Shown here: positions 25,688 to 28,916 of the stretch, piece by piece
Layout of the letters: each line of letters begins with the position of its first letter
How positions within the stretch are numbered: position 1 is the first letter of the stretch
Assembly: GCA_948443805.1 (NCBI GenBank)
Contig: CAOJUB010000014.1
Span: forward strand, 1-46,143
Direction of reading: 5' to 3'
DNA: 46,143 bases
Origin: an uncultured Clostridia bacterium
GTDB lineage: Bacteria; Bacillota; Clostridia; Oscillospirales; UBA644
Notes under the pieces: generated by a model
What the model saw: only the letters and a program-made list of their open reading frames with translations
Database searches by the model: none
What the model was told of the DNA's origin: nothing
Program-made: the position numbers and the translations under genes

Positions 25688-25795
25688 AAAAAGAAAACGG
25701 GTTACTTGCTGTGCACTCCGACATTTGCTTAATGCTGCTCAGTTCCCTGCCTGACATGGTTCGCAACGCAAAGTCACGCAAGACCCGCTTTCTTT
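25688..25795 (-). ncRNA. ffs: Signal recognition particle RNA, short bacterial type
   Basis: Read on the minus strand, 25727-25765 contains CCATGTCAGG, then CAG-GGAA-CUG, then AGCAGCATTAAG, the Ffh-binding helix 8 with its GGAA tetraloop. The ends pair (AAAGAAAGCGGGTCTTGC with GCAAGTAACCCGTTTTCTTT) and a T6 run follows. At about 105 nt it is the short type without an Alu domain. It lies upstream of dnaX, as scr does in Bacillus. Ends are estimates. Confidence 0.9.
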
Positions 25796-25932: not shown

Positions 25933-25961
25933 TTGAAAAACCGAACGAACTGTGGTATAAT
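25933..25961 (+). promoter_or_regulatory. Promoter in front of the four-way-junction element
   Basis: TTGAAA (25933-25938) and TATAAT (25956-25961) with 17-bp spacing and a TGG extended -10 on the plus strand. Transcription would start at the beginning of the structured element. Confidence 0.75.
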
Positions 25962-26031
25962 AGACACATAAATCATTGCTGCGCATTGATTTAGCGGCTT
26001 TGCCGCTCTGTGCGGAGCACAGTTGTGTCTA
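25961..26031 (+). ncRNA. Four-way-junction element, possible novel RNA
   Basis: An 8-bp closing stem (25961-25968 with 26024-26031) encloses three hairpins that follow each other almost without unpaired bases: 7 bp with an 11-nt loop (25969-25975 with 25987-25993), 5 bp GCGGC/GCCGC with a short loop (25994-26006), and 6 bp CTGTGC/GCACAG with a 3-nt loop (26008-26022). It is not a tRNA, since loop sizes and conserved bases do not fit. It could be a small RNA, a leader for the next genes, or a palindromic mobile element. Confidence 0.55.
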
Positions 26032-26042
26032 TTGACGGCCTC

Positions 26043-26074
26043 GCAAAAATGCCCTTGCAAGCAAACATTTTTGC
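26043..26074 (+). other. Hairpin before the cluster promoter
   Basis: A perfect 9-bp stem GCAAAAATG/CATTTTTGC (26043-26051 with 26066-26074) has a 14-nt loop. It ends 7 bp before the -10 box that serves the following genes. It could end transcription from the upstream promoter or bind a regulator. Confidence 0.5.
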
Positions 26075-26081
26075 TTCATGG

Positions 26082-26087
26082 TATAAT
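26082..26087 (+). promoter_or_regulatory. Extended -10 promoter of the membrane-protein cluster
   Basis: TGGTATAAT on the plus strand, with no good -35 box at 16-18 bp because the hairpin occupies that place. The expected leader is about 95 nt. Confidence 0.6.
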
Positions 26088-26187
26088 AAAGAACAGCAAA
26101 CCGCTTCCATGTAATTCAAAGCAACCGACCTGAAAAATATTGTTATTTTTACAAGATAAATAAAGAAAGAGAGGACGAGTTTCAACA

Positions 26188-27000
26188 ATGGATGAAAATA
26201 AAGCCGAAAATAATACGGTTGAAAGCGGAGAAGTATCCGGCCGACCAAACCGTTCCGATCCGATAGAAAAAACAGAAGAAACAGCAAAAGACCAACCTCT
26301 CTCCGAGCAGAAAAACGCACCGCCGGAGACTGCGCCGTCAGAAGGACAAAACGCCGAACTTCAAAAGAACTCTCCTCAGGAGTCGCAAAAACCCGAAAAG
26401 AAGAAACTGGCAGGGCGGAAGCCTGCGCCAAACGGCCAGAAACAAATAAAAAAAGGAGCGGCCACGCTTTTCCGTCTGGCAGAAATTGCGGCAGACCCCT
26501 ATCCCACGCTAAAAAAAATGCCCTGCCCGTTCTGGTTTTTGCTCCTCTTTCCGGTGTCCTCCTATTTATGCGCTTTCCTGCACATTGCCTGGGATAAAAT
26601 CAGCCTTTTTTATCTGCCGGCAGCTTTCCTGTTCCTGTACCTGTTTGCCGGTGCGGCCGCAGGACTCCTTTTTACCGCCGCGGACACCGCAATCACATTC
26701 GGTATATCCCACTTGCTGAAAACCGGAAGAAAAAACACGCCGCAAACACTGGCGGGAGCCCTTTGCTTTCCCGCCATGCTGACAATTCCGATTTCTGTCG
26801 GCGGGCTGTTATTCCGGCTGCTTTTCGGATGGGGAAGCATTCTTTTCGTACCCGTTTCGCTGCTTTTACCGCTTTGTTTCCTGCTGCCGTTCTGGACAAG
26901 ATATTACAAAGGAAAACAGCTTCCGGCCATCCTGTCGGTTTTTGTCTCCGGCCTTCTCCGGATCGGGATTGCCCATATTTTCCTGAACATGAAACTCTGA
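26188..27000 (+). CDS. Membrane protein of unknown function, YIP1-like
   Basis: I do not recognise this 270-residue protein with certainty. The first 85 residues are charged and low in complexity (Glu-, Lys-, Pro-rich). Residues 95-270 hold about five membrane segments, with a first segment around FWFLLLFPVSSYLCAFLHIA and a length and layout that recall the Yip1 family. GAGAGGACGAG stands before the ATG. It is the first of three plus-strand genes that seem to form one operon. Confidence 0.6.
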   Translation: MDENKAENNTVESGEVSGRPNRSDPIEKTEETAKDQPLSEQKNAPPETAPSEGQNAELQKNSPQESQKPEKKKLAGRKPAPNGQKQIKKGAATLFRLAEIAADPYPTLKKMPCPFWFLLLFPVSSYLCAFLHIAWDKISLFYLPAAFLFLYLFAGAAAGLLFTAADTAITFGISHLLKTGRKNTPQTLAGALCFPAMLTIPISVGGLLFRLLFGWGSILFVPVSLLLPLCFLLPFWTRYYKGKQLPAILSVFVSGLLRIGIAHIFLNMKL

Positions 27001-27036
27001 CAAAACCGGATTTCAAAACCAAAGGAGGTCTTTTGC

Positions 27037-27462
27037 ATGAGCAAAACACTGCTGAATAAAAGCGCCGGACTTTTTTCGCTGTTGATTTTTCTGATTCTTT
27101 CCATGCTGAATATCCGGGACGGAATTGAAAAACATATTCTTTTTCTTATACTGGGCTTTGTCCTGATGATCGCCTCGGTCTTTGTTATTTCCAAGGCTTT
27201 TCCCCGGGGCAACGGCGCCTACTGGCTTTCGATCCTTCCTTTTTCTTTATTGGCGGTCGCCGCAAAAATCGTTTTCGGATGGGATATTCTCCTGCCTTTC
27301 ATCCTTTGCGGCTACGGCGCAATGACGATTTCCGGATTCGCCATGAATCCGCCGGAGAAAAAGGGGGAACCGCTTTACAGTCATATTCTGCCTCTTGCCG
27401 TTGTTCTGGCCGCCGCGGCGATCTATATCGGCCTGTGCGCCGTTGTGGGGGTGTATTTATGA
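27037..27462 (+). CDS. Small four-helix membrane protein, unknown function
   Basis: The 141-residue protein is almost entirely membrane: four to five segments, for example SLLIFLILSMLNI, HILFLILGFVLMIASVFVIS and HILPLAVVLAAAAIYIGL. No family was recognised. AAAGGAGG lies 8 nt before the ATG. Its stop codon overlaps the start of the next gene in an ATGA arrangement, so the two are probably made together. Confidence 0.7.
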   Translation: MSKTLLNKSAGLFSLLIFLILSMLNIRDGIEKHILFLILGFVLMIASVFVISKAFPRGNGAYWLSILPFSLLAVAAKIVFGWDILLPFILCGYGAMTISGFAMNPPEKKGEPLYSHILPLAVVLAAAAIYIGLCAVVGVYL

Positions 27463-28916
27463 AACCGAAAAACCTGCTTCTGTTTTTTTTGTTTCTCTTT
27501 CTTTTTTCGTTTTCTGCCCGGGCGGAAAACGAAGCGCAACCAGCGCAAGAAACCACCCCGGTCCAAACAGAACAACCGCCTGCTGAAACCGGACAATCGG
27601 AAGAAGAAACCGAACTCTGCATCTGCGGAAGACCGATTTACGCCGAAAGCGGGCAGGGCTACAGCAAATTTGACTGCACAAAATGCCGCCAAAACTACCT
27701 GCTCTGCCGGTGCGCCTGCTGGTGCGGCGCCGAAACCCACACGGAAACCGAAGGCGAAGGGCAGCCCCTCTTTTGCAACGGCTGCAACAACCGCTGCACC
27801 GAATGTATCTGTGCGGATAAAGAAATTCTGCTGAAACGGGAAAAACAGATCGCCGAGGGGTCGCTGTCTCCGCTCGGTCTGCAAAAGCCCACTTCTTTCG
27901 CGGCAATATCCGTCGTTCTCCTTTTTCTCCTTGCCGCGCTATACTTTGCGCTTACCGCACAGGCGAGAAAAGCGCTGCCAGCAAAAAAAGAACCTCTCCC
28001 AAATGAAAAAGAGGAAAGAATGCCGCCGGAACCAGCCCTTCCGCAAACCGAAGGCCGAACCGCTCCGATTCCGGTCGATATTTCTGAAATCCCGCCGCTT
28101 GACGCCTATGAAGCGGCAGAAGAATGGATCAGCCGGAACATCCGGAAACGTACGGATCTGCTTGAAGAACTGGGAGCGTTCCGTCTCTCGGCAGGACAGT
28201 TTTCAGAACTGAAGGAACGCGCCGGCCTGACGCCGAACAGGAAATGTCCGGTCAATACCGAAGCGCCCAGAAAACCGCTTCCGCAAACGCTGGCGACCAG
28301 AGAATCACTAACGCAGGAAGGGTTATCCGCAGCAAAAACAATTCTTACGCCCGAAAAAATCTACACGGCGGCAAAACGGGGAGAACCGGGCTACAAAATC
28401 TGTTTTTTTGAAAACGCCGCCCGAATTCTCAGCGACGAAGGCCGTTTTTCCGGCGCGCTGACAAAAAAACAAACCGCCGCTTTTCTCCGAAAAGGGTTAT
28501 GCGACTTTTCCGAACACGAAGAAAAATTGAAGACGCCGATCAGCGAACGGTTCCAAAAAGAAACGTTTACCGTTTTGATGGCGCTGTATCTGACCGGAAA
28601 AACCCGGTTTAGAAAAACAGCGGAAGAAAAGCTTGCGCAGCATGCAAAAATCCCTCAGGATCTGTTCCGAAAAGCCATGGAAAAACTTGCAAAAAAAGGG
28701 CTGCTTGAAAACAACGGCGAAGAATACCGGTTGTCCTTCAAAGCCACAACCCTGCTCCCCGAGCCGGGCGACGACACCGTCATGTTCCGCACCGAAAAAC
28801 AACGGATTCTGTTTGTAAACAAAACCGACTGCATTTTATGTATTCATGAACAGAATGACGGCTATTTCATTCTTTCCTGCGAAAAAATACCGTGGAATCT
28901 CTATCTCGGAGAATAA
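27459..28916 (+). CDS. Cys-rich single-pass membrane protein with winged-helix-like C-terminus
   Basis: The start at ATG 27459 is chosen because it gives a clean signal peptide (residues 1-22, hydrophobic core LLLFFLFLFLFSFS) and overlaps the previous stop. The protein has 485 residues. An acidic stretch is followed by 13 cysteines between residues 54 and 118, in CxC, CxxC and CRCACWC patterns that suggest metal or disulfide clusters. A membrane segment lies at 148-167. The inner part is charged and has a possible winged helix near 380-430 (DLFRKAMEKLAKKGLLEN). No known family was recognised. Confidence 0.7.
   Translation: MKPKNLLLFFLFLFLFSFSARAENEAQPAQETTPVQTEQPPAETGQSEEETELCICGRPIYAESGQGYSKFDCTKCRQNYLLCRCACWCGAETHTETEGEGQPLFCNGCNNRCTECICADKEILLKREKQIAEGSLSPLGLQKPTSFAAISVVLLFLLAALYFALTAQARKALPAKKEPLPNEKEERMPPEPALPQTEGRTAPIPVDISEIPPLDAYEAAEEWISRNIRKRTDLLEELGAFRLSAGQFSELKERAGLTPNRKCPVNTEAPRKPLPQTLATRESLTQEGLSAAKTILTPEKIYTAAKRGEPGYKICFFENAARILSDEGRFSGALTKKQTAAFLRKGLCDFSEHEEKLKTPISERFQKETFTVLMALYLTGKTRFRKTAEEKLAQHAKIPQDLFRKAMEKLAKKGLLENNGEEYRLSFKATTLLPEPGDDTVMFRTEKQRILFVNKTDCILCIHEQNDGYFILSCEKIPWNLYLGE

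Follow-up and report, generated by a model that had tools for sequence, protein, structure and literature searches.

The window, which is the whole stretch of 46,143 nucleotides analysed here, comes from an uncultured Clostridia bacterium and contains a sigma-A promoter followed by a group of tightly packed hairpins and, further downstream, by three genes (26188-28916) for proteins of 270, 141 and 484 residues. The promoter, already recognized in the initial annotation, scores 11/12 in a scan of the window (TTGAAA, 17 nt, TATAAT) and carries a TG before the -10 box. The three proteins had been called unknown, and none of them gave a Pfam match; the third (484 residues) contains Cys-rich, zinc-ribbon-like motifs. 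These genes are incidental to the element described below. A bacterial small SRP RNA (RF00169, 59 bits) is located on the minus strand at 25692-25790, just upstream of the minus-strand genes dnaX-ybaB-recR.

Folding placed the three hairpins where the initial annotation had them. The stem that encloses them exists as well; it is 10 bp long instead of 8 bp, and it does not start where the promoter ends, but inside the -10 box, with AAT (25959-25961) of the left TATAAT as its first part. The claim that such a compact junction is unlikely by chance was borne out, as the z-score of the RNA fold is -4.6 and none of 200 shuffled sequences was as stable. It had been stated that the structure is neither a tRNA nor a known riboswitch. 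In agreement with this, a tRNA search gave no match, and Rfam 15 has no family for the element, even at E<=10.

The four-way junction is the left half of a dispersed element of 126 bp. The remainder, with a further hairpin and a second TATAAT, had been left undescribed in the initial annotation (Table 1), although the interval given there reaches to 26087, the final base of this second box. When the sequence from TATAAT to TATAAT is folded as single-stranded DNA, the z-score is -6.3 on either strand. The stems of the right-end hairpin change in pairs; they are, for example, GTAAAAATG/CATTTTTAC in genome G034 and GCAATCGCG/CGCGATTGC in G338.

Table 1. Features of the element and of its immediate flanks (positions in the window).
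Feature	Position	Strand	Description	Basis
Host -35 box TTGAAA	25933..25938	+	Host DNA outside the element, 17 nt ahead of the left -10 box	Promoter scan
Left TATAAT	25956..25961	+	-10 box of the host, used as the insertion target	Exact TATAAT in front of 109 of 120 homologous copies; empty alleles
Four-way junction	25959..26033	+	Closing stem 25959-25968/26024-26033; hairpins 25969-25993, 25994-26006, 26008-26022	Folds, covariation
Whole element, 126 bp	25962..26087	+	Begins directly behind the left TATAAT and includes the right one	Boundary table; class-wide copies; filled and empty alleles at two other loci
ATTGAC	26031..26036	+	Conserved, between the two folded halves; ATT pairs with AAT of the -10 box; candidate guide	Conservation
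Right-end hairpin GCAAAAATG...CATTTTTGC, inner TTGC-AA-GCAA	26043..26074	+	Kept across families	
Right end TTCATGG + TATAAT	26075..26087	+	Extended -10 box, probably brought in by the element; lacks a -35 at 17 nt; second TATAAT at 26082-26087	
AAGAACAGCA	26089..26098	+	Left-end remnant of the B family, at the same kind of site	blastn of B element against window 26075-26096; boundary table

A BLASTN search for copies in the same genome (1.81 Mb, 35 contigs), as proposed with the initial annotation, returned 26 matches, and the copies were studied in stretches around these matches. About 16 copies or fragments contain the four-way junction. When the extracted copies were aligned, their borders proved sharp, with TATAAT immediately before the first base and ...GCATTTTTGCTTCATGG-TATAAT as the last bases. 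Their upstream flanks are unrelated apart from the -35 box and TRTGN.

A second family, B, is present in about 37 copies in the same genome and is nested with the first. It consists of a 20-bp palindrome (AAGAACAGCAAGCTGTTCTT) and a three-way junction which ends in a U-run (z-scores of the fold -3.9 and -5.9). B uses the same kind of site and has the same right end, TTCATGG-TATAAT, as the junction family; in many cases it is nested at the TATAAT that ends a first-family copy. A search of 196 other genomes of the order found no copy of B. Two subtypes, B1 and B2 (L009-L028 and L049-L078, all from this genome), have a terminator-like U-run and the right end GCGAAATTCATGG-TATAAT. At one site (L022, contig C10, near 51225-51320) a 21-bp palindromic unit, AAAGCACAGTAAACTTGTTCT, is repeated in tandem ahead of a B2 copy and seems to expand on its own.

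The distribution of the element was analysed with a covariance model of the junction (R1); our own genome is counted in every tally. Matches were found in 26 of 394 genomes of the order (20 of 168 genera), in 28 of 391 genomes of the class Clostridia and in 2 of 398 genomes from a phylum-wide draw. The right-end pattern occurs in 47 stretches of named genome contigs, mostly from gut Clostridia of rabbits, deer and ruminants. Among 2.9 million viral contigs, a single one carries it (L210, IMGVR_UViG_3300032167_006174), and this copy is very similar to that of G043. Tandem arrays of two to three units are present in many genomes; most units are about 122-129 bp long, those of the divergent G346 159 bp. 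Each genome has stem sequences of its own, set in a constant frame. Together with the tandem arrays, this pattern of sequences points to amplification within genomes. A longer copy with an internal gene was not found: all full-length right-end matches in genome contigs are directly preceded by the junction, and the other matches are cut off where the stretch ends. The tandem pair of G346 (L113, G346:C4:143713-143968) has a different right half with GC-rich hairpins and still ends in TTTATGGTATAAT; it is perhaps a third subfamily. In G050, one copy (L091, G050:C43:20805-20900) is located upstream of a Cas9-like gene (DAGTNSVGWAVSD...), an assignment read from the first residues only.

The copies share their insertion site. 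Apart from a few degenerate ones, they start immediately behind a TATAAT box (Table 1), and all well-preserved insertions are in promoter-like sites. Across 93 independent sites, the upstream host DNA has only TTGACA at 17 nt and then TRTGN-TATAAT in common. TTGACA with at least 5/6 matches at a spacing of 16-18 occurs at 36 of the 93 sites, as compared with 0-5 of 93 for five control spacings. In the genome of the window, a -35 box with 5-6/6 matches precedes 22 of 30 host-flanked insertions, in nearly all cases at 17 nt. Other TRTGNTATAAT motifs outside open reading frames have a -35 box about as often (8/29), so that recognition of the motif and recognition of the promoter are indistinguishable here. 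Nested copies at right ends have no -35 box at their insertion sites, and these sites suggest that the TRTGNTATAAT motif may suffice for insertion.

Filled and empty alleles could be compared at two orthologous loci, which we name after putative functions suggested by the first residues of their open reading frames. At the dehydrogenase locus there are four filled alleles (L107, L172, L202, L207) and three empty ones (L223, L225, L228), the latter with an uninterrupted promoter, e.g. TTGAAAAAGGACGAAAATTATGGTATAATAAGGTATCG in L223. At the response-regulator locus, three filled alleles (L083, L166, L193) face 17 empty relatives, which have the form ...ACTTTAACATTT..RTGNTATAAT with a short leader and then the gene immediately behind it. 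Here the left homology ends at TATAAT or within a few bases of it and resumes past a short gap. The empty alleles, in which the promoter is intact, prove that insertion took place. In many genera of one family, a gene resembling a response regulator is preceded by a strongly conserved promoter, AAACAAAACTTTAACATTT..RTGNTATAAT (L256-L273).

The sequence is thus best described as a non-autonomous mobile DNA element which inserts into the -10 box of sigma-A promoters, a reading to which we assign a probability of roughly 0.86. A palindromic mobile element was among the options raised in the initial annotation, and it is the one upheld by the many dispersed copies with unrelated neighbours, the filled and empty alleles, and the nested and tandem copies. 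The tandem copies might, however, also be products of recombination.

One possibility is a MITE-like element that depends on a DDE transposase, the 7-bp target-site duplication being TATAATA. In the B family of our own genome, TAGAATA, TACAATA and TAAAATA are each present on both sides of one copy, and these three odd boxes speak for a duplication. In the junction family, however, odd left boxes (such as TGTAAT, TATTAT, TACAAT, TATACT and TTAAAT) have no copy on the right. The base before the left TATAAT varies with the host (TATGC, TATGT), whereas the right end has CATGG; the right 5-mer is CATGG or CGTGG in 64 of 98 copies regardless of the left host base, and within a single genome (G184, G203, G245) the right ends do not vary. 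Further, terminal inverted repeats are missing, which distinguishes the element from MITEs: the left end (TACGCAG... or GACACA...) and the right end (TTCATGG) have no complementarity. On balance we consider a DDE-type origin unlikely.

Somewhat less probable still is spread without any dedicated enzyme, by recombination between short repeats that contain TATAAT, with selection keeping only the insertions in promoters. Tandem arrays do occur, as do internal deletions between short repeats (L204), no transposase was found, and insertions within genes would be lost. But exact junctions in a fixed orientation at many unrelated promoters are hard to obtain from about 10 bp of shared homology, and heterologous elements (A and B) are nested at exact right-end boxes.

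The covariance analysis of homologues suggested with the initial annotation revealed abundant paired changes. Their absence had been named there as a refuting outcome, and their presence had been expected to support an RNA; here we take them as a sign of structured DNA. In 124 distinct sequences, 88.8% of the cells are paired, and double changes occupy 680 cells as compared with 181 after shuffling. The covariation score is 0.506, versus 0.165 for shuffles and at most 0.097 for slides; these values are flattered by an alignment that had been fitted to the model. Even so, we regard the contrast to the shuffles as decisive, together with the presence of double changes in each of the five helices. 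The three pairs between ATT and AAT of the -10 box are AU in 117, AU in 114 and UA in 107 of the 124 sequences, and the first base after TATAAT covaries through all four combinations (A-T, G-C, C-G, T-A).

The position of the fold relative to the promoter is informative on its nature. The 5' arm of the closing stem consists of AAT of the -10 box and of bases 1, 2 and 4-8 after it. Transcripts from sigma-A promoters usually start about 7 nt past the -10 box, and therefore most of this arm should stay untranscribed, and the closing stem is not expected to form in the transcript of the element itself. The structure of a leader RNA lies inside its transcript; here the 5' arm extends from the -10 box to 8 nt after it, for the most part ahead of the expected start. 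Only 3.4% of the standard pairs are G.T. The ratio of G.T to A.C is 98:80 over all cells and 33:13 in clean hairpins, as compared with 16:0 in tRNA acceptor stems; taken alone, this argument is only suggestive, and in the third hairpin 17 G.T stand against 3 A.C. From these data and the expected transcript start, we read the fold as being under selection and acting as single-stranded or cruciform DNA. That a transcript from the promoter at 25933-25961 regulates or senses as a structured 5' leader or small RNA, as had also been proposed, is very improbable: a perfect promoter in front, the stable, covarying fold and the excess of G.T in the third hairpin speak for it, but most of the 5' arm precedes the usual start, the copies lie in front of unrelated genes, Rfam gave no match, the same promoters are found without the element, and the overall G.T content is low.

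The mobile element that we favour resembles the IS200/IS605 family (IS608, ISDra2) in several respects. IS608 inserts 3' of a short target which is kept in the left flank, has subterminal hairpins, and uses guide bases that pair with both cleavage sites (PMC5934647). Like members of this family, our element keeps the target TATAAT on the left and has no terminal inverted repeats. It has subterminal folds at both ends on one strand, with covariation in the left junction as well as in the right hairpin. Its right end is also TATAAT, and the conserved ATTGA is a candidate guide for both. Unlike these insertion sequences, the element contains no gene, its left end is a four-way junction instead of one hairpin, the proposed guide is located 3' of the left fold, and the target is a six-base promoter box.

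We infer that the element moves as single-stranded DNA and that an enzyme provided in trans recognizes its folded ends. ATTGA, located between the folds, may pair with both TATAAT boxes, the one of the target and the one of the right end. Its ATT pairs with AAT in most copies; G203, G266 and G277 have CTTGA instead, and there is hardly any variation in the target. Insertion would restore a -10 box on both sides, leaving the -35 and -10 boxes of the host intact on the left, so that the host promoter should still work. In front of the gene, the element would set an extended -10 that has no -35 box. Expression may change, but its loss should be rare, so that insertion into promoters would be tolerated.

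One candidate for the enzyme was a Y1 transposase. No match to Y1_Tnp was found in the host genome, which is a further difference from IS200/IS605, and no Y1 transposase in other copy-rich genomes such as G050 and G266. Over 51 genomes there was no association with the element: Y1 was present in 15 of 26 genomes with it and in 12 of 25 without it. A Y1 transposase as the mover was accordingly rejected. Repeated insertion sequence genes are often lost from metagenome assemblies, and so the absence of Y1 is not final. The IS200 copies of related genomes differ from the element in both ends and target; copies that share a genome with the element elsewhere differ from it in their ends. Several IS200-type transposase genes (L134, L135, L138, L141, L142, L160, L161) have a conserved leader near a YCATGGTATAAT-like -10 box, with ends unlike those of the element. 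It is conceivable, and we propose this tentatively, that an undescribed class of transposition enzyme reads the -10 box, through a built-in guide or through the melted strand of an RNA polymerase open complex, and that promoters serve as dedicated, self-restoring sites across Clostridia.

Small folded mobile repeats are a known kind. REP sequences are short, palindromic, non-autonomous, intergenic and present in many copies, and an IS200-like tyrosine transposase acting in trans has been proposed to move them (PMC2817692). They are small single palindromes tagged by GTAG or CGTC (PMC2817692, PMC3733652). Our element shares the general features of REP, BIME and REPIN sequences, but it is 126 bp long, two-part, tied to the -10 box and of other sequence, with no detectable RAYT (no Y1_Tnp match in the genome of the window). 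Correia elements are small repeats adjacent to genes which bear sigma-70-like promoters (PMC10969869). They are similar as small promoter-bearing repeats next to genes; however, they have terminal inverted repeats, which our element lacks, and its target is itself a promoter box. The BOX, RUP and SPRITE repeats of pneumococcus are modular, folded, nested and probably parasitic (PMC3049150). Compared by description, our element is likewise modular, folded and nested. We know of no -10 target for BOX, RUP or SPRITE and of no report that Correia elements enter a -10 box. A literature search which covered few subscription papers or preprints revealed no element that targets the -10 box. We know of no precedent for entry into a -10 box combined with a replacement -10 at the other end.

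In eukaryotes, the Ty3 retroelement of yeast inserts at the transcription starts of genes transcribed by RNA polymerase III, a site which spares genes. It is alike in its choice of landing site and has no relation to our element. If this is confirmed, bacteria would have their own equivalent of the eukaryotic elements that use transcription starts as safe sites. A gene that the element enters has its leader and promoter rewritten, and annotation and promoter prediction would therefore be affected in many gut Clostridia. The finding also gives a target for searches, namely a putative class-wide enzyme which recognizes folded DNA together with TATAAT.
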